Virus record (IMG/VR): IMGVR_UViG_3300030098_003180
Location: 1 to 51,137 of that record
Source: a virus
Strand: one strand, 5' to 3'
Length of the DNA: 51,137 nucleotides
Of the stretch, positions 2,547 through 51,137 are shown one piece after another (within the stretch, counting starts at the first letter, position 1; each line of letters opens with the position of its first letter). The position numbers and the translations under genes are program-made. The notes beneath the pieces were generated by a model. The model was not told the DNA's origin. It ran no database searches and saw nothing but the letters and a program-made list of their open reading frames with translations.

Positions 2547-5474
2547 ACTTAATGCAGCTAATGCAGCTAATCTAGTTTTTTCTTTTTCTAACTCTTTTTG
2601 ATTCTTTGTTTTTCTTTTAGAGCCACGTTCAAAATCAATATTAGGTAATGCAGAAGTAGAATTATAAGTCATATTAAATAATTTCTTTTTCTGTTTATCT
2701 CTCCATTTAGTAATCCATTTAGGTTTAAACATACCTGTTTCTATTCTAAATGCTTTTTCCCATTGACCTTTAGCAAGAGCTGGCATAGTTTTCCAGAAAG
2801 TTCTTGAACCTTGAATATTAAATATTCTACCTACTTGATACCACCAATCAGAATCATCAGGATTATAATTTAACTTTTTATGTTCTTCATATTCATCTGA
2901 TGTTAAGTTTAAAAAATCTGTTATTTCAGCAGCTGTTATAACATCACTTAAAAACGGTCCCAAATTAGCAACTATAGGACCTTTACCATAATAAGAGTCA
3001 TAATATTGTTTTTCTTTATCAGCGTCACCTGAATGATTCATATTACCTAAAAATTGTAAAAGCTTTGAACTCTCCTCCATAATAGGATTCTCTATTATAG
3101 ATACAGTTGCTTTATTGCTACCTCTACGTTTTTGATCCTCCTCAAAAGGAGTAATACCATAAACAGAAGCAAGGCCTCCAACATCAGCGTCTGATACTAA
3201 GGCAAATAACCCAGGTAACACAGAGTATAATGCAGCAGCTCTAAACATTCTTGTAAAACTTTGAGAAACAATCATTTTACTAGGGTCAAGTGGATCTCTT
3301 TCTGTAAATCTGAAACCTTTAACATCCCTAACTAAATCTTTTACCATATTATAATGTAAATCAAAGAAAGCCCATTTAAAATGTTGATACTGACCTATAA
3401 CTTTACCAGCACGACCTTGCAATATTCTAGCTTTAGCCCAGTTATCGTAATCAAAATGTAATTTTTTAACCATTTCAAATGCCATATTACCTGATGTAGT
3501 TTCAATATGATCATAAAGTTGTTTAGTTGTTGGTGCTTTACCAAGTTTCTGTTCTAATTGTTTTTTATGATAATCAAGTCTAGTCTTTTCCCCCATAAAA
3601 GCATGCGCAAAAGCCATATCAAATGTCTCAATTCTATTTCTATTCTCAGCCCACTTCATAAATGTAGAAAACTTATCAGCACCTTTAGCAAATTTATCAG
3701 CTATTTTTCTTGATGTTTCACCTTTAGTTGACCTAATTAGTTGACCTCTATTATTAACATCAAATCCTTCGGGTATAAGTATAACATCCATAGAACCTTT
3801 AGTTGCAGCAGAAACAGTACCTGCAGCCTCTTTAACGCCCATTAACATACCAAATCTTTTCTTTTGCCTGTTAATCATAGCTTCATTAGTTTGCTCTTTA
3901 CCATCAGTAGTAGAATCATATTCTCTAGATGTCTGATTTTTAAAATCTCTAGTTATTCTATAACCTCTTGTTCCATAAAATATCCAGTTATTAAAAGCCT
4001 GTGTTCTGTTTTTTAAAGCACCCCTGACACTAAAACCTAACTTGCTAGCATACTCAAAAGCGTTTATAGTTCTTACCATGTTATCCATAGCAGATGTAGG
4101 GCTTCCATTACTATATAAAGCACTATCCTTTATTTCAGTCATAATTTCTAATAAATGTTTTGAATAAGCACCAACATCCTTATCACCACCTTTTAAGTTG
4201 TTAGACCTTATACTTTCTAATAACGGTTTCATAGCTGAATGATAATTTAAATTAATTCTAGACCTTAAATTAAAAGATGCTACATCATTTACATATTTGT
4301 TTAAATAATAAACAGGATCTAAACTATAATACTTATCAGTTTCACCAGCTATTTTTAATCTATTAACAACATTTTCAGGGCTCAATTCTTTTTCTAATAT
4401 AGCTTCTACCTGCGCTGGTGTCATATTTTTCCAGTCAATACTTTTATTATCTGACTTTGCAAATGATGCTATTTGATGCATAATATCAGTTAATTCTATA
4501 ACATATTTAGGCGAATATTGTTTTAAACCTACTACATATTCACCCTCACCATTATACTTTTGGTATTTTTCATAAGTTTTAGTATAAGGATTAAACACTT
4601 TTAAATCACTTTCATTTTTCAAAACAAGCATTTCACCATCAGATTTATAATTTTTATTAAATTCTCTAAAATTCATCTTACTACTTACAAGTAAAGCGTC
4701 AATTTGATCTTGTACTTTTTCGTAGGCATTCATTAAATGTTTTCTGTTACCCTCATTAGTTACTGACTGAATTAATCTTCTTGCTGAAATGGCCCCATTT
4801 AAGAGGTTTTTCATACTCTCTACACGTAATACATTCCACTCACTAACTATTGTGTTTTCTGTAGGTGTTTTAGGCAGTGTTGTACCATCTAGTAATTTAT
4901 TATAACGAGTAAGTATTTTACCACCTTCAGTTGTTTCTGTAAATAATGTTAGCTTTCTTAATGCTTCAGTTTTTTCTTTAGGAGTAATAGCGTTCATAAG
5001 TTCAGCTTCTAAGTTTTGAAATTCTTTAAAACCACTTTTTGTAAAAGACTCAGTAAACATAGAATATAATCCATCTATCATAACCTTAACATGTCTTCCA
5101 CCTTCTTGTATTTGTCTTTGGTTATAAGACATAGATTCACCTATAGCTTGAACTAATTCATTACCACCTTTAATATTTCTTGCAAGTGCAACAGGTAGTT
5201 TGACGTTTTGAGAAAACCAACCCTGTCTTTTACCTAAAGTAGATCTCCATTCCATAACACCTGCTTTAAATACTCCTGCATCACCCTTGTCTATATGAAC
5301 AGTAGTAGGGTCCCAAGGTTTACCTGTATAGCGATGCCATAAAAATTCAAAATTCTCACTATTCATACCATCAAATTTCTTTATTAAAGGATCTTTAGTT
5401 AATCCAGCAACTACTTTCATAACTTCTTTAAAGTTTTTTCTTTGCGTACTATCTTTGGTTAAGCATAAAGCCAT
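2544..5474 (-). CDS. large internal virion protein candidate (976 aa)
   Basis: Last gene of the structural arm. Predicted almost entirely helical, Lys/Asn-rich, with a short hydrophobic stretch around residues 740-765 (AAALYSVLPGLFALVSDADVGG), near a region rich in aromatic and basic residues (YQHFKWAFFDLHYNMVKDL). The C-terminus is strongly basic (RGSKRKTKNQKELEKEKTRL). Size, position directly downstream of the 3129-residue protein and helical nature fit a protein packaged in the capsid and ejected with the DNA, as in N4-, P22- or crAss-like podoviruses. No catalytic motif was found. Start ATG is preceded by AAGGAG. Assignment as an ejection/internal protein is inference from context. Confidence 0.5.
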   Translation of the reverse strand: MALCLTKDSTQRKNFKEVMKVVAGLTKDPLIKKFDGMNSENFEFLWHRYTGKPWDPTTVHIDKGDAGVFKAGVMEWRSTLGKRQGWFSQNVKLPVALARNIKGGNELVQAIGESMSYNQRQIQEGGRHVKVMIDGLYSMFTESFTKSGFKEFQNLEAELMNAITPKEKTEALRKLTLFTETTEGGKILTRYNKLLDGTTLPKTPTENTIVSEWNVLRVESMKNLLNGAISARRLIQSVTNEGNRKHLMNAYEKVQDQIDALLVSSKMNFREFNKNYKSDGEMLVLKNESDLKVFNPYTKTYEKYQKYNGEGEYVVGLKQYSPKYVIELTDIMHQIASFAKSDNKSIDWKNMTPAQVEAILEKELSPENVVNRLKIAGETDKYYSLDPVYYLNKYVNDVASFNLRSRINLNYHSAMKPLLESIRSNNLKGGDKDVGAYSKHLLEIMTEIKDSALYSNGSPTSAMDNMVRTINAFEYASKLGFSVRGALKNRTQAFNNWIFYGTRGYRITRDFKNQTSREYDSTTDGKEQTNEAMINRQKKRFGMLMGVKEAAGTVSAATKGSMDVILIPEGFDVNNRGQLIRSTKGETSRKIADKFAKGADKFSTFMKWAENRNRIETFDMAFAHAFMGEKTRLDYHKKQLEQKLGKAPTTKQLYDHIETTSGNMAFEMVKKLHFDYDNWAKARILQGRAGKVIGQYQHFKWAFFDLHYNMVKDLVRDVKGFRFTERDPLDPSKMIVSQSFTRMFRAAALYSVLPGLFALVSDADVGGLASVYGITPFEEDQKRRGSNKATVSIIENPIMEESSKLLQFLGNMNHSGDADKEKQYYDSYYGKGPIVANLGPFLSDVITAAEITDFLNLTSDEYEEHKKLNYNPDDSDWWYQVGRIFNIQGSRTFWKTMPALAKGQWEKAFRIETGMFKPKWITKWRDKQKKKLFNMTYNSTSALPNIDFERGSKRKTKNQKELEKEKTRLAALAALS

Positions 5475-5483
5475 ATATTCTCC

Positions 5484-8400
5484 TTAAAAACAAGACGACC
5501 AAGTCTCTTGCATTTTTTCTAATGCACTTATAGGTTTTGATTCTGTACCATTATGGTAACTGTTATCTCTAAATGTTTTCTTAGGCTGATACCAAGCACC
5601 ATCTTTACCTAACTGTATTACTGAGCTTCCTTCCCACATACCTTTCATAACAGAACTAATCTCGCTATGTGAAGGCATAGTGCCGCCTGGCCCCATTTTA
5701 TTTTGATTGCTTAAATTATATGTCATCCTATACAACTGTACAGGGTCCATAAAATACGAACCATTTACAAATTGAAGCATTAAATCTTGGCCTTGTCTTT
5801 GTAAGTTAGTATCAAATACAAAGTTAGGCAAATCTTTTAATGGAGAAATAAATCCAAATTGATCATATTTCCTTTTACTAGTTCCAAAATTAAATACATC
5901 TCCTTGCAAACTACCATCGTGCTGTTTTATAAAAGCTGTTTTAAATCTATCATTTAATCTCTGAAAAATATTATTAGCCTGTTCCATGCTCATAACATTC
6001 TGAGCCTCACCACGCATTGCTTTATTTAAAAACTTAAATACTAACCTTTCATTAGTGGTATTCTTTCTAAATGATGGGCTTAGTAAGTTGTTATTATTGC
6101 TATCTTTACCTATAATTTCCCAAGTATTATCTGAAACTTTAGGTACTAATAAATCAAATAAAAACTGCTGCATAATTTGTTCTGACTTTGCTGGAGATAT
6201 TTCTTTAACTCTTTGTAAAAAGTCTGAAACAACAACCATATCAATCTCACCCATCATGGAAAGCCTTCTAGAATCTAAAGGTTTAGTAGGGTCTGCATAA
6301 CTACGCCTTTCATTAGACAGAGTTTTAAAGAATCCATCCTTAGTATTAAACATAAGATTTCTAACCATCATTAATTCTGTTTCATTAAAGTTTCTAGAAT
6401 CTCTAGCAAAAGCATCATGCATTGCGCGTCTAACCATATTAACAGTTTTATCACCTAATATAATTTGACCTGGATTATTATATATAACATCACCTTTTCT
6501 TACTTCATATCTTTCACCTTGTTTAAACTCTCCTACTAAAAAGGTTTCTTCATTCCTTCTTCTATAAACAGCAATATGATTTTGAGCTACACCCTTTCTA
6601 TCTTTACGAACAATATTAGTTTTATGTAAATCATAAATATTAGCAGGGTCATTTAATTCTTTAACTATATTATCCCTAATCATTTGATTTCTTTTTAATT
6701 CACCTTGCCAATATTTACCACTTGATGTGTTTAATAAACCCTTTCTTTGCATTGAATTAACAACATCTTCTATCTTATCTATATTGAATATAATACTTTC
6801 AAGACCAGCAAATGTTTTTTGGTCAGACAGATATTTTTTTACTGCATCACTAACTTTACTGTCCCTTGTTTGAAGACCTAAAACTACTTCAGCAATAGAC
6901 GATTCAGAAGGGATAGATTTATGGAAATTTTCTTTAGAGTTTCTTAAACCTATCATAGCTTGAACAACAGGATTGGCAGACATGCCAGATCTAGTTTGAC
7001 CTTTTTTATATCCTTCACCTAAAAATCCTAACAAGTTATCCACAATTGATCCATATTCGTTTTGTTGGTAAGTTTTGGTAGTTTTATCAAACAATAAATT
7101 ACCTTTGTTGTCTCTTTTGAACGATGCAAATTTCATTAAAGATAAATTTTGCTCATACTTATACAACATTTCAAATGCAGACATTTTTCTAGATGTTCCA
7201 TCAGCGAAAGATTCTGTCATATGTATTAAGTTGTGTATACGATCCATTGGTCGTAACACTTTAGATATAAATCCTTCAATAGAAGTTTTAGGACTCAAAC
7301 CATCTCTATTTGCAGCACTAGGCAATTCTTCATAAGTAATATACTCAGCTTTATCTTTTACTTTTGACCTACGTATGTTTAAAAACCCATTTTCAGGATT
7401 TAGCCAAGCCTCTTTAACCATATCTACGTCTTGTATATTACCTCTTTCTTTATATATATCAATAGTAGATTTAATAAGGTTTTTAGTATGTGTCATAGCA
7501 TCTACAAATGCTGCATCATTCTTTAATTCAACAACATATTTTTCACCTTCATAATTAAACTCAAATAATTTAAAGTTTTTATTAGCACCTGTTACTTTAC
7601 CGTCTAAAATAGATTGAGAATACGCTGTTCCAGGTTTAAATAACTCTTGTTTAGTAGATATATATTGCAATAACGTACTAAGAGTAGACACTTGTCTCAT
7701 TAATGGTGCTCTTTTAGATTCTAGCTGCTTTAATACTGCTGCATAATTAGTCATCTGTAAAGGGTTATCCATTTTAACTTCGCTAAATGCTCTATCAAAA
7801 ACAGCCATACTTGCAGGATCATTATATCCAGCAACGTTATAAGCTTCTCTAACAACTTCACCAGGAAGTGCAAAGAAACTAGAAGATTTATCTAAATCAA
7901 AGTCAGCATCTTGAGGTTGTATTACGTCTAAGTAATTCATTTCACTAACTGGGCCTCTTCTTCTGTCTAATAATTTTTCAACACGAGTAATAACCCAATC
8001 ATTCATACCTACTTTAGGAACTCTAAGGTCTATTTTAGCAAGATGTACAGACTGAAAATCATTACCAGTCTTGCCTTTACCCCAAACAAAATTTCTCATT
8101 TTTTCAGTTACTGTAGAGGCTGCATTATTATTTCTTACATTAGGTTTATTTGAGTGACTTTCTAACGTATATGTTTGATTGTAATTACCAAATTTCCATT
8201 GAGTATTATCTAATGTCCCATTTAAATACATTGCTAAATCACCTATTGTTTTAATACCTTCTGACCTAAGAGCTGATTCCATAATAACATTATATGAATC
8301 TAAAATATGTTGCTCAAATTTAATAATTTGCTTACCTATATCATTAAGATTACCACCAGTTTTTTTCATATACTGTTGATGTGGTCCTACTATATGGCCA

Positions 8401-11400
8401 TCATGAGTAATTAATACATCCATACCAGTTTCAATACCAATTATATCTTGTTTATTTTTGAAGAACTTATTAATCATATTTTCATTTATTTTAAATACAA
8501 GGCTGACACCTTCTCTAGGATTTATTCTACTAACTTTACCGCCATCTCCTATTTTATACATACTTGATATATCTGTACTATGCTCTGAATAAGACATTCC
8601 AGATCCACCAAATGAATGTTGAACCCCGTTTCTTCTATCACCTAGAGAATAACCAGAACCTGCTGACATGACATTCATTTTGCCTGCACTTACAGAACTA
8701 GATGCAAAGTTTCTACTACCCATATAATCACTTGAAACCATTTTTTCTACAGAAGGTTGCATAAATTCAAACAAAGGTAAACCATTAGCATTTAATACAG
8801 CTTCTGCACCTATAAGTTTGTTTATAGTTCCACCACTTTCATGCTCAAAGTTTTTAAGTCTAGTTACTACTTTTTGATATGAAAATGGATTTTCTGACAA
8901 TGAACTAAATGTTTGTATCATTTCACTAACAACATTATTTTGACCAGTCATTTCAGCTAACGATCTAATAGCTTTGTTAGACATTAAATTACCAAATCCA
9001 TAACTTAAAGTAGCATCATGAATACCAGCTATAGATTTAATCATTATACCTTCTCTACCTATTTCAACAACTTCATTAACCGCATCTCTTGGTAATCCTT
9101 TTTCAAACATAACTCTTTGAAAATCAGTTTCACTACTTATTCTTTCTAAATGAACACCAGGCTTCCTTGTTTCTACACCATTTGAAACCTCATGAATCTT
9201 ATGTGTGCTTTCAAAGCCAATAGAATCAGTAAAATAATCTCCACCTATTTTCATAAGTTTGTCCATTTCTGGATGGAATTTATAAGCAGTTTTACCTACA
9301 TGGGTTACAAGTTCACCTTTAACAGAGTCGAAATGTTTATACATTTCAATAGGTTTGATAGCAACATTAAATCCTACAACAGTTTGAACAGGGACATACC
9401 TACCATCTTTTTTTATGTAGTTACCTTTACTATCCTTTTGCATAACTACTCTATTATTCATATCTAATTTATCACCCCAAATAAACCAATCTGTTCTTGC
9501 TCCTTTGCTCATTAACATAGCAGCCATTTCAGGTAAAGATAAATATTTTTCAGCATTTTGAGCTGAAGCGTGAATAGTCTCATAAGATTCCATAATCAAA
9601 TCAACTCTTTCTTGTACTTCAGACTTGTTTAATTTAGGATTATTAAATTGGATTTGTTGTATTAATTGTTCTTTGGCTAACTCTTTAGTCCCAAAAAAGC
9701 TTGCACCAAGACCACTCTCATCAAACAAGTTTAAAGTTCTATGTTTGGTTGGAGTTTTCCCGTCTTGACCAAAAAATTGTCTGTTATATATATCAACAAC
9801 TTCTTTCATGTTAGAGTTAGGATCTATAAATGTTTCAAGAAAATGTTTAGCAGTCTCTAAGTTTCTTTTAGTTAAAGCAAAACCTCCTCTAGGAGAGTCT
9901 AATTTTATGTATTTTAAATCTGATAACACTTCTTTTATTGTAGTATTTCCAGACATAACATCTGCTAATCTTTGACCACTAAAGGCATTTAATAATCTAG
10001 TAATAGATACAAGCCTTTGAACGTTTTCAGCGTTAGGCTCAATTTTAAAATTACCCTTACTATCCATTGTGGCGCCTAATTCTTTCTTAAAATAATTTTC
10101 TATTATTCTAGCCGCATCAGCAACAGGCATAGCAGTTGTTGCAAGTTCATTAATTAATTGTTTTCTTAAAGGACCTTCAGCTAATGACCATGCTTGTGTT
10201 ACTTTTTGCATAGAATACTGAGGTATAATAACTACAGTTTTTTCATCTAATTGAACAGGAATTAATTCTAACTGCCCTTTCTTTCCTTTACCACCTAAAT
10301 AACTTTTAAATTTATCAAAGAAAAGTATATCATTTTTAGATAATACCTCCCTAATACTTGGAGCTAAAGGTAATCCAGCAGCTAATTGATTGTAAACTTT
10401 TTGAATTTGTTCTGGAGGTAAAGAAGAACTTCTTGTTCCTTTATAAGATATTTCTGGACTAAATAATAATATATCACCCACATCAAACAAACCTAATGAT
10501 TGTTGTAGTTTGTTTATACCAACATTCCAATTAGAAATACTTGTTTCTTCTACATGAACCATGCCATTTTCATACTTCGCTAAATGAACCTTTTTAGAAC
10601 CTAAAGCGCTTTGCATTAAAAACATAGTATCTAGTATAAAATCTTCATATGTCCCTGGTTCTCTTCCATTTTTCTTTTGTCTGGTAATATGAGCTTCAAC
10701 TAAAGGTTTCATATTCTCAATAAAAGGTTTCATTACAACATCAATATACTGCTTTTCTGTAAAAGTACCTCTTATAACAGAGTTAATTCCATCTACTAAC
10801 ATTTCTCTATAAGTTATATCTTTAACACCTAAGTTATTAAGTAAATTAGTTTTAACTTGTCCTTGCATTTGATCTAAACGTTCAAACAATAATCTTGGTT
10901 GAGTTAATATATCGGACATTGTTTCAGCAGATATTCCCCATTTACTTTCGTATTGAGAAGGGCTAATAGATGTGTGGGTTTGATGTGGCCTACCAACACG
11001 ATCACTATTTAAAACATTATTGATTCTTTCTTCTATATAATTTTGAACATCTTCATAAGTTTCAAATCTACCAAGTTCATTCCTTTTATCTAAAGCTTTA
11101 ATAACTATAGATTCAAATTCTTGCCTTAAATTTTCTAAAGTTTTTGATGTTGCCTTACCAGGTTGTCCAATAATCAATTTTTGCTCAAATTGCTGCATTT
11201 TTTCACTTGCATCCATTAATGTTCTTAACCCAATTGCATCATTGGTTGCCATATATTTTTGAATTAAAGACAAAACATTTTCATTTACATTACTAATTTC
11301 AGTTACTTTAGTCATTAATTCTTTAGCGAGATCAGGTTTAGTGTCTAAAATAGATTCAGCTTGAGCCATTAGGTTCATAATTCTTTCCTGGATCTTATTG

Positions 11401-14400
11401 TTATCAATAAATAAGCCTGCACTTTCTGAAACATGAAATTTATTTACTTCACCTAAAGCAGTTTCAATCTCTTGCATTAATTTTTGACGCTCTCTACCTG
11501 GCATATCTAAGTCAATCGGTTTATCTCCAAACTTTATTATACCTTTAGTTTTCTTTAATTGATTTTTTAAAGGAGCTTCAACTTTATTCTCATATTCAGT
11601 TATCTTATTTAACAAAACATCTCTTTCAGCTGGAGGAAGATTTAATCTTACAACACTTTGTCTTAAAGATTCAGCTGATCTAACTACTACAGAACCACCT
11701 GATTTAACTTTAAGCAAAGATTCTCTATCCATCATACTAACTATAACTCTTCTTAAACCTGAAGTTAAGTTTGCGTTTCCTGTTAATTCATTCGCATATT
11801 CTCTATACACGAAGACATTCATAAAGGCATTATATTCACTATTGCTTTCAAATATATTTCCAAAAGCTTTATTTAAGTCCTTACTTAAAGTCTCAAATTC
11901 ACCCTTATTAATATCTCTTGCGCCAGTTTTACCAGTATTATCAAACAACTCTAATACTCTATTAATTCTTTCTAAATTGGCTATTTCATTAGCCTCCATA
12001 GATGCTTCTACGCCTATCTCACCTTTTAAAACTTCTTCTACAACTCTAAATCTAGAACGACCTCCTAGCATTTTTTGTATATTAGAATACATTGTTTGTA
12101 ATTCTGGGGTTCCTCCACCTTGTTTACCTAAAACCTCATAAACTAATCTACTTCTTTTAATTCTATTAGCAGCTTGAACTGACTGCCAAATAGCAGTTTG
12201 TCCCATTATATACTTATCTTTAAACCCTGCATCTGGTTTAGTGAAACCTGGAACATTCTCTCTCCAGTTATCCATCTTCTTGCCATCTAAGCCATTATAC
12301 ATAAGTTCATGCATAGACTCTGTGCTAGTTTTATAAACCTCTAACATTTTTTCAAGTTTACCTAATTCTATTTTTTCCTGATTCCAAGAAACACCTTTGC
12401 TGCTAACATCTAAACTACCTGCGGCCTTAGCAGAATCAATTGTTTCTAAAAGAGAATGAGCAGCATCTGCTATTGGTTTTCCAGCATAGTCTAAACTTAT
12501 AGTTTTTAAAGCATCTCTTACTGTTTCATGTACAAACATTTTACCATTTTGTTCACTAACAATAGAATCTAAACCTATAGCGCCTAAAGAATCCTTTATA
12601 TATTGATGACCCATTTGCTGAATGTTCTCAGTTATTTTTAATTTAGCTAACTCTACCTTAGTATCTATAAGATCTAAATTACTAGAATCAATAACTGTTC
12701 CATCATTAAGCTTAAAGTTATCAAATGTTTTAATATACTCTAAAGCTTCTGCTTGAGTCATATACTTCATTTGTTTCCCAACCATACCAGCTGCAGATAA
12801 TGATGATATTTTAGTTGCTATATTTAATAAGTTTTGCAAATCATTTACTTCTTTAGAAGTTCTAGCAGCAGCTTCTATATTATTATCTTTTTTATGTTGA
12901 GCTTGAATTTTAATTAAGTCACCAATTTTCTTTTGAACGTGAGTTTGAAAAGGCAAAGGTCTTTCATTAAACTTAACTTTATTATCTATAGACTCTTGTA
13001 ATCTTTGTTGGTTTTTATTTATATCTACAAATTCTGCTCTAGAACCTTCTATAAATTCACTTATTTGAATACTAGATTCTTTAGAAGCTGAATCAAGAAT
13101 TAACTTAACAGCTGTATCTGTATCCCCTATTGTAAATGCATTATATATATCGTTCTTAGCAGGCTCAAAACCTAACCTTTCATAAGACTGTAAGAATCTT
13201 TGTATTTCACTACCATTACCATGTAATCCTGTTTGATCATAAAACTTAGGTAACCTTGCAGATTTAGGGTCAAATTTCTTACCACGCTTCATATACAACA
13301 TACCAACCCAATGGTCAAACACTAACTTGTCTACAGGATAATCTTCTGTAAACAGTATACCTGAATCGTACGCTGCTGAATAAGCTCTTGCGTTCATAGC
13401 TAAAGAACCTACAGATGCCCTTGTAAATGATTCAAAACCATCTCTAACAATTTCTTTTTGTAATTTTCTAATTAAACCATCTTTTCCAGGTAATGATTTC
13501 TTTACTATATTATAAGCGTTTTCTAATATTTCTCTTTCATTTACACCTAAAGAAGTACCTTTTCCTACTTTAGTAATCATATCATCTAATGCCGACTTTG
13601 TTAAACCAGAGCCTGGAAACGCAGCACCTATATCATCAGCACCTTTAGAAAAACTATTTATAAATGCTAATAAAGCACTATCATTTTGATCTGCCGCTTT
13701 CTTTCCAAACCTTGATCTAAGCATGCTACCCATAGCCTTAAAGTCAGCTATCATTCCAGACTTACCAAATTGAACACCTTTACCACCAGGTATATATCTT
13801 ATAGGGGCAAGTATTGCACCAGTTTGAGCTCCATGCATAGCTCTTTTATACCACTCTTCATAACCCCATTCATTTTCATTTAACCCATATTGTTGAGCAG
13901 CATAATCACCAGCTTCACCAGCTATCGTATCCCATGTTGCTAATAACACAGATTCATAAGCTATATCGCCTGCTAAAATAGCCATCTTTTTATTCCATCC
14001 ACGCTCTAATAGTTTATGAGTTATAGATTGTCCGAAATGAACATGTCTTGTTTGAGATGCAGAGTTTATTATAGATGATGTCATTTTTTCTACAGACTCT
14101 TCAAAAGATTCTTTACCCGCTTTTTTAACTCCTTCTTCACCAAGCTCTTTTGTAAGCATTTCAGCAACTTCTTTTTTTACATTATCTGTAATTTTTGTTG
14201 TCAATTGAGGGGCGCTATTGAAAGGATTTACTCTAGCTTCTTTTCTTTTAAAGTAATTAAACCAATTGTAGCTTCCTGCCGCCTCTTTACCTGCTTCATC
14301 AATTTGTGAACGAGTTGATTTTATGACTGTTTTCATAGCATCATCGCTCACACTTGTCACAATACCTTTAGCAATATCATCACTTAAATTTTTAACTGCA

Positions 14401-14873
14401 CTTTTACCTGCTTCTTGAACAGCCTTTTTCATACCAGCGCCTGCAACTTTACTTGTAAGACCTATACCTTTACCTACAGCCCCAATACCTGTTAATATAC
14501 CTGCACCTGTACCAATAGCATATCCTATTTTACCTGCTAAAGATTCATCTTTCCAATCTTGTGAACCAAATTGAGCAGAAATATCAGGTCCTCCAGATAC
14601 TTCAGAAGCAACATCAGCTACCGTAGGTACTACAAAAGTTTCACCAAAACCCCATAAAGCATTACCAACAAAGTCAAATAAAAAGAAATCATCTACCCAA
14701 GTATATGTAGGCTCTTTAGGCGTTGCAGATTTTACACCCATTTTTCTAGCAGTTGGACTTAAAGGATCACCAGGTAATTGTAACCCTAAAGGTTTTGCTG
14801 GTTCTGTTTGAACTGCAGTAGGCTTTATAGTTGTTCTATTTCGCCAGTCTTCATAACTTTTATATTTACCCAT
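5484..14873 (-). CDS. giant internal protein with RNA-polymerase double-psi barrel signature; candidate virion RNA polymerase
   Basis: 3129 residues, the largest gene here. Residues 2324-2328 read DFDLD (in QPQDADFDLDKSS), preceded by LRVPKVGM about 40 residues earlier and followed by FFALP. This order (R-x-P, glycine-hydrophobic, then DFDxD, then hydrophobic-Pro) mirrors the beta-prime catalytic barrel of cellular RNA polymerase (NADFDGD) and of YonO/crAss-like phage polymerases, where the Asp residues hold catalytic Mg2+. Upstream, GGDYFTDSIGFESTHKI (Lys1892) resembles the beta-type barrel with its active-site lysine. The N-terminal 200 residues hold Gly/Ala-rich segments (GKIGYAIGTGAGILTGIGAVGKG) typical of ejected proteins. 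It sits among other internal-protein candidates at the end of the virion operon. Likely role: packaged polymerase that starts early transcription. A structure-based search would settle it; otherwise call it a giant internal protein. Confidence 0.6.
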   Translation of the reverse strand: MGKYKSYEDWRNRTTIKPTAVQTEPAKPLGLQLPGDPLSPTARKMGVKSATPKEPTYTWVDDFFLFDFVGNALWGFGETFVVPTVADVASEVSGGPDISAQFGSQDWKDESLAGKIGYAIGTGAGILTGIGAVGKGIGLTSKVAGAGMKKAVQEAGKSAVKNLSDDIAKGIVTSVSDDAMKTVIKSTRSQIDEAGKEAAGSYNWFNYFKRKEARVNPFNSAPQLTTKITDNVKKEVAEMLTKELGEEGVKKAGKESFEESVEKMTSSIINSASQTRHVHFGQSITHKLLERGWNKKMAILAGDIAYESVLLATWDTIAGEAGDYAAQQYGLNENEWGYEEWYKRAMHGAQTGAILAPIRYIPGGKGVQFGKSGMIADFKAMGSMLRSRFGKKAADQNDSALLAFINSFSKGADDIGAAFPGSGLTKSALDDMITKVGKGTSLGVNEREILENAYNIVKKSLPGKDGLIRKLQKEIVRDGFESFTRASVGSLAMNARAYSAAYDSGILFTEDYPVDKLVFDHWVGMLYMKRGKKFDPKSARLPKFYDQTGLHGNGSEIQRFLQSYERLGFEPAKNDIYNAFTIGDTDTAVKLILDSASKESSIQISEFIEGSRAEFVDINKNQQRLQESIDNKVKFNERPLPFQTHVQKKIGDLIKIQAQHKKDNNIEAAARTSKEVNDLQNLLNIATKISSLSAAGMVGKQMKYMTQAEALEYIKTFDNFKLNDGTVIDSSNLDLIDTKVELAKLKITENIQQMGHQYIKDSLGAIGLDSIVSEQNGKMFVHETVRDALKTISLDYAGKPIADAAHSLLETIDSAKAAGSLDVSSKGVSWNQEKIELGKLEKMLEVYKTSTESMHELMYNGLDGKKMDNWRENVPGFTKPDAGFKDKYIMGQTAIWQSVQAANRIKRSRLVYEVLGKQGGGTPELQTMYSNIQKMLGGRSRFRVVEEVLKGEIGVEASMEANEIANLERINRVLELFDNTGKTGARDINKGEFETLSKDLNKAFGNIFESNSEYNAFMNVFVYREYANELTGNANLTSGLRRVIVSMMDRESLLKVKSGGSVVVRSAESLRQSVVRLNLPPAERDVLLNKITEYENKVEAPLKNQLKKTKGIIKFGDKPIDLDMPGRERQKLMQEIETALGEVNKFHVSESAGLFIDNNKIQERIMNLMAQAESILDTKPDLAKELMTKVTEISNVNENVLSLIQKYMATNDAIGLRTLMDASEKMQQFEQKLIIGQPGKATSKTLENLRQEFESIVIKALDKRNELGRFETYEDVQNYIEERINNVLNSDRVGRPHQTHTSISPSQYESKWGISAETMSDILTQPRLLFERLDQMQGQVKTNLLNNLGVKDITYREMLVDGINSVIRGTFTEKQYIDVVMKPFIENMKPLVEAHITRQKKNGREPGTYEDFILDTMFLMQSALGSKKVHLAKYENGMVHVEETSISNWNVGINKLQQSLGLFDVGDILLFSPEISYKGTRSSSLPPEQIQKVYNQLAAGLPLAPSIREVLSKNDILFFDKFKSYLGGKGKKGQLELIPVQLDEKTVVIIPQYSMQKVTQAWSLAEGPLRKQLINELATTAMPVADAARIIENYFKKELGATMDSKGNFKIEPNAENVQRLVSITRLLNAFSGQRLADVMSGNTTIKEVLSDLKYIKLDSPRGGFALTKRNLETAKHFLETFIDPNSNMKEVVDIYNRQFFGQDGKTPTKHRTLNLFDESGLGASFFGTKELAKEQLIQQIQFNNPKLNKSEVQERVDLIMESYETIHASAQNAEKYLSLPEMAAMLMSKGARTDWFIWGDKLDMNNRVVMQKDSKGNYIKKDGRYVPVQTVVGFNVAIKPIEMYKHFDSVKGELVTHVGKTAYKFHPEMDKLMKIGGDYFTDSIGFESTHKIHEVSNGVETRKPGVHLERISSETDFQRVMFEKGLPRDAVNEVVEIGREGIMIKSIAGIHDATLSYGFGNLMSNKAIRSLAEMTGQNNVVSEMIQTFSSLSENPFSYQKVVTRLKNFEHESGGTINKLIGAEAVLNANGLPLFEFMQPSVEKMVSSDYMGSRNFASSSVSAGKMNVMSAGSGYSLGDRRNGVQHSFGGSGMSYSEHSTDISSMYKIGDGGKVSRINPREGVSLVFKINENMINKFFKNKQDIIGIETGMDVLITHDGHIVGPHQQYMKKTGGNLNDIGKQIIKFEQHILDSYNVIMESALRSEGIKTIGDLAMYLNGTLDNTQWKFGNYNQTYTLESHSNKPNVRNNNAASTVTEKMRNFVWGKGKTGNDFQSVHLAKIDLRVPKVGMNDWVITRVEKLLDRRRGPVSEMNYLDVIQPQDADFDLDKSSSFFALPGEVVREAYNVAGYNDPASMAVFDRAFSEVKMDNPLQMTNYAAVLKQLESKRAPLMRQVSTLSTLLQYISTKQELFKPGTAYSQSILDGKVTGANKNFKLFEFNYEGEKYVVELKNDAAFVDAMTHTKNLIKSTIDIYKERGNIQDVDMVKEAWLNPENGFLNIRRSKVKDKAEYITYEELPSAANRDGLSPKTSIEGFISKVLRPMDRIHNLIHMTESFADGTSRKMSAFEMLYKYEQNLSLMKFASFKRDNKGNLLFDKTTKTYQQNEYGSIVDNLLGFLGEGYKKGQTRSGMSANPVVQAMIGLRNSKENFHKSIPSESSIAEVVLGLQTRDSKVSDAVKKYLSDQKTFAGLESIIFNIDKIEDVVNSMQRKGLLNTSSGKYWQGELKRNQMIRDNIVKELNDPANIYDLHKTNIVRKDRKGVAQNHIAVYRRRNEETFLVGEFKQGERYEVRKGDVIYNNPGQIILGDKTVNMVRRAMHDAFARDSRNFNETELMMVRNLMFNTKDGFFKTLSNERRSYADPTKPLDSRRLSMMGEIDMVVVSDFLQRVKEISPAKSEQIMQQFLFDLLVPKVSDNTWEIIGKDSNNNNLLSPSFRKNTTNERLVFKFLNKAMRGEAQNVMSMEQANNIFQRLNDRFKTAFIKQHDGSLQGDVFNFGTSKRKYDQFGFISPLKDLPNFVFDTNLQRQGQDLMLQFVNGSYFMDPVQLYRMTYNLSNQNKMGPGGTMPSHSEISSVMKGMWEGSSVIQLGKDGAWYQPKKTFRDNSYHNGTESKPISALEKMQETWSSCF

Positions 14874-45886: not shown

Positions 45887-45968
45887 GGGGATGATAGGTA
45901 TTCGACTGTTCTTAACGCTGTCATGCAGAGGGAATAGGAAGTGAGTTCGATTCTCACCATCTCCACTA
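45887..45968 (+). ncRNA. mini tmRNA-like molecule (tRNA-like domain only)
   Basis: 82 nt. The 5' end GGGGATGATAGGTATTCGAC closely follows the tmRNA signature (GGGG-x-TGA...TTCGAC). The 3' end GTGAGTTCGATTCTCAC is a perfect 5-bp T arm next to CATCTCC, which pairs with GGGGATG as a 7-bp acceptor stem (one G-U), then discriminator A and CTA instead of CCA. Between the ends an 8-bp P2a-like stem (CTGTTCTT/GGGAATAG) is capped by an 18-nt loop. There is no room for a tag reading frame or pseudoknots. It may be a degenerate tmRNA, a tRNA-like decoy or the 5' domain of the adjoining structured RNA. Confidence 0.55.
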
Positions 45969-48066: not shown

Positions 48067-48145
48067 AATATTAGTCTTAGCAATAATCGCTATTATAATA
48101 TGGTATTTTATATGTAAAAAATGGGGAGATAACTTATGGATGTAG
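48059..48145 (+). CDS. 28-residue single-pass membrane peptide
   Basis: MFKILVLAIIAIIIWYFICK followed by KWGDNLWM and stop. One perfect transmembrane helix with a basic exit. GGGAGG is 8 nt upstream, and it overlaps both neighbours, as do all genes here. Membrane micro-proteins are common in phage early operons. Confidence 0.5.
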   Translation: MFKILVLAIIAIIIWYFICKKWGDNLWM

Positions 48146-48324
48146 GAATGTTAGAAGCAAACATGAGAGTTTTAAAGAAAACTGTTAAATATCTGCCTAA
48201 TGGAAGAGTAAAAGAGTCTGTTGAGATGCAAATTAAACAAAATTTAAATCAAATTGATGACTTTTTTGACCAATTAGCAGATGAAGCAAATTTTATTGAA
48301 TCATATGAACAAACAAACCAATAG
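48136..48324 (+). CDS. 62-residue helical protein upstream of the Ubl gene
   Basis: MDVGMLEANMRVLKKTVKYLPNG..., then a long amphipathic helix (VKESVEMQIKQNLNQIDDFF) and acidic C-terminus. No cysteine or motif. It lies 8 nt before the ubiquitin-like gene and is in the same transcript. Could be a partner of the cassette, but evidence is position only. Confidence 0.55.
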   Translation: MDVGMLEANMRVLKKTVKYLPNGRVKESVEMQIKQNLNQIDDFFDQLADEANFIESYEQTNQ

Positions 48325-48332
48325 GAGGCTAT

Positions 48333-48551
48333 ATGGCAACCAAAACAATCAAATTTCTACAAGGTGGCGGCTTTGTAGAGAGACAAACTAACGCTGATAC
48401 TGTTGAACAACTAAGAAATGAGTTTCCAGATGATATAACTTCTGGATCATCTGTTGCTGTTAATGGGGTATCTGTAACAAATACACATGCTATTGAAGAA
48501 GGTGATATTGTCGCAGCTGTTAATAACAACAAATCTGGTGGTGATCAGTAA
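48333..48551 (+). CDS. ubiquitin-like (ThiS/MoaD beta-grasp) modifier with GG-DQ end
   Basis: 72 residues in the beta-grasp order: strand KTIKFLQ, turn GGG, strand FVERQT, helix TVEQLRNEF, strand SVAVNGVSV, then AIEEGDIVAAVNNN. This 'L-x-x-G-D-x-V' ending followed by GG is typical of ThiS/MoaD and bacterial Ubl proteins. It ends SGG-DQ: Gly69-Gly70 with a two-residue tail, so a protease must trim it before an E1 can adenylate the glycine. A JAB peptidase and an E1 are encoded downstream. It starts 8 nt after the previous gene with AGGAGG. Role: protein modifier or sulfur carrier. Confidence 0.8.
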   Translation: MATKTIKFLQGGGFVERQTNADTVEQLRNEFPDDITSGSSVAVNGVSVTNTHAIEEGDIVAAVNNNKSGGDQ

Positions 48552-48561
48552 ATAGATAACT

Positions 48562-48628
48562 TTAGAGAGAGTGGGGTGGTTACAATAAATCCTTAATGGC
48601 CTGTTATTGTTGGTACAGCTCTCTTTAA
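48562..48628 (+). promoter_or_regulatory. two-part hairpin between Ubl and E2-like genes
   Basis: TTAGAGAGAG (48562-48571) pairs with CTCTCTTTAA (48619-48628), 10 bp with one G-U, and ACAATAA (48582-48588) pairs with TTATTGT (48604-48610) inside. No T tract follows and GGAGGG for the next gene lies just after. It could limit read-through so that the modifier is made in excess over the enzymes. Confidence 0.5.
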
Positions 48629-48645
48629 TTAACCTTGGAGGGTAT

Positions 48646-49908
48646 ATGGATTTTAGAGATTATGACTGCATTGTAGATGGAACTATAGAACAATGCATGG
48701 AAGAAATAGAAGTAGAAGATCTTGGGGAACATATATATTATGGCCCTCAAGCTGAAGTAATGGAAAAGTTACAACAGTTTAATAGTAGAAATAGAGCTGA
48801 TTTAGAAATTACTAAAACATTTAAATGGAAGCGCGGTTCTTATGATAGAGTAGCTGAACTTATGATGAGAGGTCTTGGATTTAGAAGAAGAGCTAGTGGT
48901 ATGCATAACTATTTAAGTAGAGAAGATTGGTTTAAGAACCATGAATGGGACAGAATAAAACGTACTTTAAGAGAGATTGATTGTATGTTATACCATTTAA
49001 GAGGTTCTGGTGAAGTATGGTTAGATGATCCAAGTGTTCTTGTTGAAAGAAAAAACTTATATTCTAATTATATGTCTGAACAAGTAGAATTGGCTGACGA
49101 ATTAATAGATAATATAGATATAATGCAAGAAATGTATCATCAATTATTTGTTCATCCAACATCACGTTCTAGCCAAAGATATATGTTAGTAAGCACACTT
49201 AGAATAAGACCAGGTGTAATGAAAGTATATATGACAGATGGTAGAACAAGTCAAAATGAAGCTGAACATATAGAGAATATAGCATGTGATACAGATTTGT
49301 ATATAAATAACATTACATATCCGCTTAGAACTATGACTAGAAATACTAATTTTAATAGGCCAAGCTTTGATGTTCAAACATTAGGTCAATTAGAACAACC
49401 AAGTGATAAAGGATATTTAACTTATCCATTTATATCTGGTGGTAGACATTACTCTAGTGGTGTATTTGGAAATAATGTATGTTATGGTGATCAGTCAAAT
49501 GATATATATATAGCACTTAATAGATATGATATGGCTTCATTTGTATTACAATCTATTAATTGGGCTACAACTTATACAAACATAACAGGTCCACATAATA
49601 ATATTAAACAAATGTATCATGGTGAACCAGCAAAGTTATCTGAAAGATATAGATATGCTCATCCTGAACCAGTAACACCAGAACAAGCTGAACAAATGAC
49701 CTTGCAATGGGCTACTAGAATGGGTGGTGTTAGCCATGCTGCTCCAACTATAATACATACAACTGATAGTGCAGGAAATCCAATAAGTGTTACTAGAGAC
49801 ACAGTATCAAATGATCAACCGATACAAGGTGATCGTGAACAATGGGACCCTGAAAATCTTAGAGAAGTCCTTGATGAACGTAATATAAACCCAAATGAGG
49901 AGGAATAA
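48646..49908 (+). CDS. candidate E2-like conjugation protein (420 aa)
   Basis: 420 residues from the ATG at 48646 (MDFRDYDCIVD), with GGAGGG just upstream; a TTG at 48607 lies in the hairpin arm. Residues about 1-165 are helical and basic. The C-terminal half has strands (RYMLVSTLRIRPGVMKVYMTD) and then the pattern YPFI...RHYSSGVFGNNVCYGD, where His268 and Cys279 sit like the HPN...G-x-x-C of E2 enzymes, followed by helix FVLQSINWATTY and GPHNNI. This fits an E2/UEV fold with catalytic Cys279, but overall similarity is weak. Its place between Ubl and JAB/E1 genes supports the idea. It could instead be the substrate or a scaffold. Confidence 0.55.
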   Translation: MDFRDYDCIVDGTIEQCMEEIEVEDLGEHIYYGPQAEVMEKLQQFNSRNRADLEITKTFKWKRGSYDRVAELMMRGLGFRRRASGMHNYLSREDWFKNHEWDRIKRTLREIDCMLYHLRGSGEVWLDDPSVLVERKNLYSNYMSEQVELADELIDNIDIMQEMYHQLFVHPTSRSSQRYMLVSTLRIRPGVMKVYMTDGRTSQNEAEHIENIACDTDLYINNITYPLRTMTRNTNFNRPSFDVQTLGQLEQPSDKGYLTYPFISGGRHYSSGVFGNNVCYGDQSNDIYIALNRYDMASFVLQSINWATTYTNITGPHNNIKQMYHGEPAKLSERYRYAHPEPVTPEQAEQMTLQWATRMGGVSHAAPTIIHTTDSAGNPISVTRDTVSNDQPIQGDREQWDPENLREVLDERNINPNEEE

Positions 49909-50861
49909 TGAAAGTATATATCTTAAAAGAATGTTGGGATAAAATAATAAACTATGCTAAAGCTGCTTATCATGGTGAAAAAGCTGAAATAGGTGGTATG
50001 AGTGTAGTTACTCAAGATAAAGATGGTGATTGGTGGATAGAAGATCCTCAAATCTTAAACCAAGAGATTGCAGGCACTACCTGTGACCTTGATAAAGAAG
50101 ATTTGGCTAAATACTATACACAAATGGCTGTAAAATACAAGGATACTAACTTTAGATTCTGTTGGTGGCATAGTCATCATACAATGGATGCATTCTGGAG
50201 TGGTACTGATTTATCTAGTATAGATGAGTATGGTGAAGGAGAATCTGATCTATCGTTTGCTCTTGTTGTTAATCTTAAAGAAGAGTATAAATGCAGAATA
50301 TCTGTATGGAAACCACTACAAGTACATCAAGATGTTGAGCTTGAGATAGTTGGTAAAGAAGATGTAGACATACCTCTTGAAATAGTAACTGAAGTTAAAG
50401 CTAAATGTAGAACTAGAAAGTTTAATACTGTTATAAACAGAAATACTAAACAATTAAGCATTGGCTCTCATAGTTGGTATGATAGTAGAGGAATGTCTAG
50501 TAATTACAGATTGTTAGAAGATGATTGTATGGGACTTAAACCTACAGAGTCAGAAGCTGCTACATTTGAAGCTAAATGGGAGTATGCTAATGGTAAAATA
50601 CATGAATATATCAGACAATTTAATACAGGTGATTGGAATATGCATAAGTATAAATCTGCTATTAATCATACTAATAAACAATTAGAACCTTATGGTATAG
50701 AAATAGATGTTCTAAACAAAAAAGAGTTACAAGAGTTTATTGAAATGGAATCAGCTCCTTATGAGTTGTTACATTGTATTGATGGTAAATATGCTGAAAT
50801 TGCTGAATCATTAATAGATTGTGCATCTTATAATAATATGTATCAAGGAGTATGGATATGA
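49908..50861 (+). CDS. JAB/JAMM metallopeptidase with C-terminal extension
   Basis: 317 residues. The JAMM metal site is complete: Glu27 (KAEIGGM), His88-x-His90 (WWHSH), Ser98 and Asp101 (AFWSGTD), with exact H-x-H-x7-S-x2-D spacing. Family members remove Ubl tails or modifiers (isopeptidases). It likely trims the DQ end of the 72-residue Ubl and may also deconjugate it. Residues about 150-317 form an extra domain of unknown fold (basic, Trp/Tyr-rich, ends GVWI). The start overlaps the stop of the E2-like gene (TAATG), and its stop overlaps the E1 start (ATGA), so all four proteins are coupled. Confidence 0.9.
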   Translation: MKVYILKECWDKIINYAKAAYHGEKAEIGGMSVVTQDKDGDWWIEDPQILNQEIAGTTCDLDKEDLAKYYTQMAVKYKDTNFRFCWWHSHHTMDAFWSGTDLSSIDEYGEGESDLSFALVVNLKEEYKCRISVWKPLQVHQDVELEIVGKEDVDIPLEIVTEVKAKCRTRKFNTVINRNTKQLSIGSHSWYDSRGMSSNYRLLEDDCMGLKPTESEAATFEAKWEYANGKIHEYIRQFNTGDWNMHKYKSAINHTNKQLEPYGIEIDVLNKKELQEFIEMESAPYELLHCIDGKYAEIAESLIDCASYNNMYQGVWI

Positions 50862-51137
50862 TAAATACTAGAAGTCAAGACATCGCAGACTTAAAAGGTG
50901 TAGAGTTTCATATTGTAGGTTGCGGGGCTATCGGTAGCTCCGTGGCCATGCAATTAGTTAGACTCGGTGCAGATAACTTTTATTTGTATGATTTTGATAA
51001 AGTTGAAATACCTAATATAGGTGTAAGCCAATACAATGAACAAGATGTAGGGCTAACTAAGGTAGGTGCTTTAATAAATCATATGAAAAGAGTTAATGTA
51101 ATGATTAAGGTAGAAGGAATAATAAGTAAATTTAAAT
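50858..51137 (+). CDS. ThiF/E1-like adenylyltransferase, 3' end outside window
   Basis: The first 93 residues are present. Rossmann motif GCGAIGS (21-27), then YDFDKVEIPN with the Asp that binds ATP ribose, and 'QYNEQDVGLTKVGAL' which corresponds to the E1 'N-x-x-R-Q...G-x-x-K-A' segment; the arginine of NxxRQ is not at its usual place (NIGVSQY). E1 enzymes adenylate the C-terminal glycine of a Ubl and usually transfer it to a cysteine. The catalytic cysteine would be beyond the window. ATGA overlap with JAB stop shows strict coupling. Confidence 0.85.
   Translation, partial: MINTRSQDIADLKGVEFHIVGCGAIGSSVAMQLVRLGADNFYLYDFDKVEIPNIGVSQYNEQDVGLTKVGALINHMKRVNVMIKVEGIISKFK

Follow-up and report, generated by a model that had tools for sequence, protein, structure and literature searches.

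Ubiquitin-like conjugation in prokaryotes is known from several gene clusters built around E1, E2 and JAB chemistry. The stretch of DNA considered here, IMG/VR virus record IMGVR_UViG_3300030098_003180, carries a cassette of four such genes, encoding a ubiquitin-like protein (Ubl), an E2-like protein, a JAB metalloprotease and an E1. The whole stretch, called the window below, is a record of 51,137 bases. It is linear and therefore probably a fragment, and it also encodes a terminase, a portal, a major head protein and a DnaB-like helicase. The four genes probably represent a phage-owned pathway for ubiquitin-like conjugation and deconjugation.

Described Systems

The first system for comparison is Bil, an anti-phage system that tags the tail proteins of phages and, like the phage cassette, has four genes for Ubl, E2, JAB and E1. 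In Bil, BilA contains two Ubl domains, BilB carries a CEHH motif (C-x5-E-x-H-x4-H), and BilD consists of a pseudodimeric adenylation unit and a Cys domain (PMC11354881). The phage Ubl, in contrast, is a single domain of 72 amino acids. CEHH is found in none of 73 relatives of the E2-like protein, and where BilD has an inactive and an active adenylation domain with a separate Cys domain, the phage E1, of 217-220 amino acids in relatives, has one adenylation domain. Membership of Bil is rejected for these three reasons.

Type II cyclic-oligonucleotide-based antiphage signalling (CBASS) also uses E1, E2 and JAB chemistry (PMC10097602), and its Cap2 is a distant relative of the phage E1. Cap2 is a fusion of E1 and E2 whose substrate is a nucleotide cyclase, not a beta-grasp Ubl (PMC10097602). 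The phage E1 and E2-like protein, in contrast, are encoded by separate genes with the JAB gene between them. Since there is no E1-E2 fusion, membership of type II CBASS is rejected as well. General searches recognised no cGAS-like nucleotidyltransferase; the neighbouring genes were not screened specifically for this group (CD-NTase).

Another system is the operon of the archaeon Caldiarchaeum subterraneum, which encodes ubiquitin, an E1-like and an E2-like protein, a small RING protein and Rpn11 (PMC5654768). The pathway has been reconstituted experimentally, and Rpn11 cleaves the tail of pro-ubiquitin (PMC5654768). Like the phage set, it has one Ubl with a short tail after Gly-Gly (removed by the JAMM protease in Caldiarchaeum) and separate E1 and E2 proteins. 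Its proteins are also the closest relatives in the PDB of the phage Ubl fold and of the phage JAB sequence. Unlike the phage set, it lies on an archaeal chromosome and includes a RING protein; no RING gene was recognised in the phage, whose E1 has only about 217 amino acids.

A similar parts list is found on bacterial chromosomes in operon type 6d of Iyer, Burroughs and Aravind, with separate genes for Ub-like, JAB, E1-like and E2-like proteins (PMC1779556). Type 6d has an additional alpha-helical gene, and none of its E2 proteins has the HPN histidine (PMC1779556). The phage cassette thus resembles type 6d and Caldiarchaeum operons in its parts and differs from them in its owner, in the size of its E1 and in its E2 family.

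In phages, a Ubl and a JAB are already known from the lambda and T1 tail proteins TAPI and TAPK (PMC1779556). Those genes stand in a tail-assembly position and come without E1 or E2, unlike the cassette. Because they are known, only the complete set of E1, E2, JAB and Ubl is the unusual part. The PRTRC cassette was considered too and rejected, with PRTRC A (JAB) at 11.8 against 101.8 bits and PRTRC ThiF at 23 against 144.75, the ThiF sequence being partial.

The Four Genes

The cassette occupies the 3' end of the window. Its genes, given as open reading frames (ORFs), are the following.

48333 to 48551, + strand: Ubl, 72 amino acids, ORF with C-terminus ...NNNKSGGDQ
48646 to 49908, + strand: E2-like protein, ORF of 420 amino acids from ATG (433 from an upstream TTG)
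49908 to 50861, + strand: JAB/JAMM metalloprotease, 317 amino acids, ORF with JAMM residues
50852 to 51137, + strand: E1/ThiF-type adenylating enzyme, first 95 residues, ORF with a PF00899 match

A first-pass annotation had proposed four cassette genes on one strand, starting with a 72-residue beta-grasp protein ending GG-DQ. The ORFs agree with both statements, with only 95 residues of E1 present. Its claim that the last three genes overlap by one to four bases holds for the E2-like and JAB genes, which share 1 base. The overlap of JAB and E1 is 4 or 10 bases, depending on which ATG is chosen, as the E1 ORF may start at 50852 or 50858; it continues through 51136 and is open at the contig end.

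The Ubl ends in K67-x-G69-G70 (Gly-Gly codons at 48537-48542), followed by the residues DQ. K-x-G-G is invariant in 59 of 59 relatives, and between 0 (10 sequences) and 60 residues follow it. Judged from the sequences, this fixed GG with a variable tail marks a precursor that is cleaved behind it, as in processed ubiquitin precursors. An AlphaFold model with a predicted local distance difference test (pLDDT) score of 80 has the ubiquitin fold. It matches Caldiarchaeum ubiquitin (top), NEDD8, SUMO and MoaD in the PDB, with E values of about 0.002. At the sequence level, Pfam gives a sub-threshold match to ThiS, and a profile search of the PDB gives no significant match. A beta-grasp modifier with an exposed or exposable C-terminal glycine, as expected of Ubl systems in general, is thus present.

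The JAB protein has the complete set of JAMM residues that the first-pass annotation had reported, namely E27, H88-S-H90, S98 and D101. These ligands are invariant in 85 of 85 relatives. The protein scores 20.6 bits with Pfam Prok-JAB, below the cut-off of 25, and 6e-8 with the PADLOC JAB model. Caldiarchaeum Rpn11 is the sole match of its profile in the PDB.

The E1 was also correctly named as a ThiF/E1 protein: even the partial ORF matches PF00899 confidently, at 59 bits with a cut-off of 28.1, and its nucleotide loop GCGAIG lies at 50918-50935. Full-length relatives (for instance L002 and L008) have 217-220 amino acids and one adenylation domain. They contain GCGAIGS, invariant Arg, Asp, Asn and Lys residues, and EPCTxKATSYC near the C-terminal end. 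GxGxxG and C170 (in EPCTxKAT) are invariant in 91 of 91 relatives. When the E1s of crAss-like and Flavobacterium phages are included, the second cysteine of this stretch is no longer invariant and the first alone remains so, within the common motif (E/D)xxC(T/S)xKxT. For this reason C170 is the strongest candidate for the catalytic role. The possibility, raised earlier, of an E1 without a catalytic cysteine is therefore not borne out by the relatives, where an adenylation core and a candidate cysteine occur together, including in the crAss-like E1s.

Profile matches of the E1 include UBA5 (the best in the PDB), UBA6, Cap2 and BubCD. UBA5 is a single-domain E1 with its cysteine in the crossover loop (PMC12355090). 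By analogy, the phage E1 appears to be a minimal type with a UBA5-like layout.

The E2-like Protein

The E2-like protein is the least familiar member of the set. It belongs to no family in Pfam, including the Pfam E2 families, or in PHROGs, NCBIfam or PADLOC. A profile of its family finds no E2 in the PDB, and searching cultured phages by tblastn with the E2-like proteins gives no match.

Evidence for an E2 function is provided by a motif, a cysteine and a predicted fold. Classical E2 enzymes have an HPN...ICL motif. Distant members of the phage family have HPYIS...ICLG, followed by W and a (T/S)NPLN stretch, and the window has YPFIS...NNVCYGD. The cysteine in this motif, Cys279 (codon 49480-49482), is invariant in 63 of 63 relatives and is the candidate catalytic cysteine. 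The first-pass annotation had described an E2-like H...G..C pattern. Its cysteine stands up well; its histidine is not the one of E2 enzymes, and the HPN site of the window is a tyrosine.

The AlphaFold model of the relative L002 (pLDDT 84.5) shows a helix, a meander of four to five strands, and the cysteine immediately ahead of two helices. With VIA-align, its top globular matches are the Knl1 RWD, the Tsg101 UEV, FTS, Ubc12, UbcH8, the Vps23 UEV and the GCN2 RWD. Their Z scores of 4.6-7.4 lie in a range that unrelated models may reach by chance. Because of this, weight is placed on the combination of a recurring superfamily, the motif and the invariant cysteine. These point with moderate strength to a UBC/UEV/RWD-like fold, and so to an E2 (UBC) fold with a catalytic cysteine, rather than to the absence of an E2 fold against which the first-pass annotation had cautioned.

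Almost all intact relatives also have a C-terminal four-cysteine module, C-x(n)-C-x4-C-x5-C, which from its pattern possibly binds metal. The window lacks it owing to a gap, which is placed as follows.

49653 to 49654, + strand: junction at which 111 nt are missing in frame from the E2-like gene; L002, L004 and L018 carry the segment

Such a gap could be an error of metagenome assembly.

Conservation and Distribution

With JAB as the query, 43 loci were found in IMG/VR. An alignment of E1 finds at least 388 relatives, of which 80 were kept, and a joint alignment including the crAss-like E1s raises the number of relatives to 479. Synteny was compared in 126 loci, counting the window. The complete order Ubl, E2-like, JAB, E1 is present on a single strand in 73 of them, which gives good support to the earlier proposal that a phage owns the full set. 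In almost all of the others, genes are absent where the locus or the contig ends; L063, which has an incomplete set despite 1 kb upstream of the E2-like gene, may be an exception. Variants of order or duplication are few, for instance E2-like, Ubl, JAB, E1, or an E2-like gene split in two (L025); beyond the main set, the Ubl may follow E1 (L226, G006). The genes typically touch or overlap, with median gaps of 2 bases between E2-like and JAB and -10 bases between JAB and E1. Conservation across hundreds of contigs rules out chance ORFs.

The cassette is not a core element of its phage family. In fifteen contigs, the terminase shares 79-98% identity with the terminase of the window. Four of these carry the E1 and E2-like genes, and four are uninformative owing to contig ends. 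In the remaining seven (G004, G007, G008, G009, G010, G014 and G015), the region upstream of the helicase is contiguous and the cassette is absent, so a role as a family core gene is rejected. From these seven contigs without the set and the four with it, the cassette is an accessory module gained or lost as a unit at one site. This site lies before the DnaB helicase gene and adjoins it and an AAA_24 ATPase gene.

For each of the four genes, the ratio of nonsynonymous to synonymous substitution rates (dN/dS) stays under 1 whichever close pair is compared. It ranges over 0.07-0.32 for E1, 0.13-0.40 for JAB, 0.23-0.61 for the E2-like gene and mostly 0.07-0.35 for the Ubl. By this sequence measure the cassette is under purifying selection. 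Pairwise protein distances in 41 loci correlate at 0.68-0.89 within the cassette; the corresponding values against the helicase next to it are 0.51-0.70. When bacterial genomes were scanned with two short patterns each for E1 and JAB, no homologue turned up, a result that speaks against a recent copy from a host.

In 7 of 75 loci, a gene resembling a radical-SAM spore photoproduct lyase (PF20903; 77.7 bits in L004) is located inside the cassette or adjacent to it. It stands either between the E2-like and JAB genes or between the Ubl and E2-like genes (examples are L004:3486-4346, L010:7053-7919, L011:2708-3574, L014:2032-2898, L227:7996-8853).

A Parallel Locus in crAss-like and Flavobacterium Phages

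With E1 as the query, 76 records were found in a phage collection. Those inspected were all crAss-like phages or phages of Flavobacterium psychrophilum. An apparently parallel locus is present in crAss001, DAC15, Kolpuevirus, bajarodcaudo, Dulem virus 41 and five cr genomes. In crAss001 it runs from a Ubl-like protein with a C-terminal extension (gp79) through gp78 to the JAB gp77 and the E1 gp76. As in the window, genes for a Ubl-like protein, an E2-like candidate, a JAB and an E1 are thus consecutive, both here and in Flavobacterium phage Fpv1. Unlike the GG of the window family, the Ubl-like part of these phages is fused to the extension and ends in KxSG. In cr106_1 the Ubl part was not seen in the annotated counterpart of gp79. 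The neighbours of the crAss-like cassettes are primase, uracil-DNA glycosylase and nuclease genes.

The E1 and JAB proteins of the two groups are clearly homologous (probability 96.7). The gp78-type proteins have 370-445 amino acids with an invariant HSH and C-x-G. In a profile comparison they match the E2-like family weakly (probability 0.5), with Cys aligned to Cys. In BFVD, the E2-like model matches the fold of cr128_1 (probability 0.99, E 8.5e-4), whose 435 residues agree in length with the gene at the gp78 position. Because the sequence comparison is weak, the link between the two families is drawn from this fold match and from gene order.

Two further observations concern these phages. 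In Fpv1 (L129:4653-6945), a gene on the opposite strand (5169-5918) splits JAB into two ORFs, an arrangement that hints at an insertion of intron-like or homing type. In crAss001 gp79 (L128:3232-3909), the C-terminal region after the conserved KxSG resembles DNA-binding helices of the SAP/HeH type, suggesting a large tail that JAB removes or keeps.

Proposed Mechanism

We infer the chemical steps, the targets and the biological role of the cassette, including protein conjugation itself and the choice of targets, as follows. JAB would trim the Ubl after GG, which in the window means removal of DQ. The minimal E1 would adenylate the C-terminal glycine and load the Ubl onto its crossover-loop cysteine (C170 in relatives). 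From there, Cys279 of the E2-like protein would take over the Ubl and hand it to an amino group of the target protein. JAB would also strip the Ubl off targets. Such a route would work as the reconstituted Caldiarchaeum pathway does (PMC5654768).

As the cassette is accessory and lies beside early replication genes, it seems more likely to act early and inside the cell, on proteins of the host or on replication-associated ones, than in virion assembly. We infer host takeover or counter-defence first, competition with other phages next, and self-modification last.

Several points count against the proposed pathway. The E1 of the window is incomplete and ends ahead of the candidate cysteine. The HPN histidine is not universal in the E2-like family, as the 73 relatives with a residue at that position have His (43), Phe (22) or Tyr (8). 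Foldseek finds no significant match in the PDB for the whole E2-like model, and the VIA-align scores could arise by chance. Among otherwise intact E2-like genes, that of the window is the only one without the four-cysteine module. No RING or other E3 was recognised for the cassette, and a location among early genes is common to many kinds of phage gene.

Alternative Explanations

One alternative model is a defence of the Bil type carried by a phage, in which early Ubl tagging would act on the virion proteins of competing phages. Known bacterial operons with Ubl, E1, E2 and JAB are anti-phage, and an accessory cassette swapped at a fixed locus suits such a role. However, the architecture is not that of Bil (PMC11354881), and the carrier phage would need to exempt its own virions. 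The model is possible and rather unlikely.

Another model is self-modification, where the phage would tag its own replication or virion proteins as a structural or timing signal. The cassette adjoins the DnaB helicase, the AAA_24 ATPase and other early genes, and the crAss-like sets have the replication-type neighbours given above. Close relatives nevertheless share the replication genes and lack the whole set, so the cassette is not essential to the replication machinery. This model, too, is unlikely.

A sulfur carrier or cofactor pathway is distinctly improbable. Here a ThiS/MoaD-like Ubl would be adenylated and thiocarboxylated, passing sulfur to a small molecule or a transfer RNA (tRNA), and JAB would only trim its tail. 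The best family matches are indeed ThiF/MoeB for E1 and ThiS for the Ubl, and JAB-trimmed sulfur carriers exist in bacteria. Yet with a partial sequence the best ThiF equivalog reaches 69 of 159 bits, every intact set includes an E2-like protein with an invariant cysteine, and JAB is kept also in sets whose Ubl has no tail beyond GG. Moreover, the E1s have no rhodanese fusion, and in the loci examined no biosynthetic gene was recognised beside the cassette.

Least probable is a dead or partly decayed set that has lost its E2 cysteine module and is drifting: the 111-nt gap is unique to the window E2-like gene, but it may be an assembly error, the catalytic cysteine, GG and JAMM residues are intact, and dN/dS is 0.1-0.4 against the nearest relatives.

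Other Features of the Window

Two further features flank the cassette.

48136 to 48324, + strand: ORF of 62 amino acids just 5' of the Ubl, with homologues at the same place in most loci of the close group
1 to 636, + strand: C-terminal part of the DnaB-like replicative helicase (phrog_19, 6e-23)

In relatives, E1 is followed by the helicase. The helicase thus lies downstream of the cassette, and in the actual genome no more than a few kb should separate the two contig ends of the window.

At 45887-45968 (+) there is an Rfam match to transfer-messenger RNA (tmRNA) of 59 bits (gathering threshold 47), covering 82 nt only. This element has a tRNA-like end without the usual tmRNA middle and terminates in GAGUUCGAUUCUCACCAUCUCCACUA. 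It may represent a short remnant of tmRNA or else an attachment site; ARAGORN found no tRNA in it. On the late strand, a 3129-residue ORF (5484-14873, -) adjoins ORFs of 976 and 882 residues. A family search assigned the 976-residue ORF to none.

Significance

No report of a complete phage-encoded set of Ubl, E2, JAB and E1 was found in the literature searched, which left preprints and many subscription papers outside. The reviews and surveys of crAss-like phages that were searched do not mention ubiquitin, JAB or ThiF. In genome annotations, gp77 is labelled "metalloprotease" and gp76 "thiamine biosynthesis".

A wider reading is plausible if tentative. Phages of at least two lineages, the uncultured family of the window and the crAss-like phages, would own a complete writer-eraser Ubl pathway, with the metal module of the E2-like protein as a possible ligase, and would use it for early reprogramming of host proteins.

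Bacterial operons with Ubl, E1, E2 and JAB are anti-phage weapons, and here phages own the full set. Viruses of bacteria may therefore possess a protein-tagging pathway of their own, of a type mainly familiar from cells and anti-phage defence. Cultured crAss-like phages of the gut make the idea testable, since their related genes are at hand under the labels thiamine biosynthesis, metalloprotease or hypothetical. If functional, the cassette would be a viral counterpart of prokaryotic ubiquitination and a source of phage-coded protein tagging.

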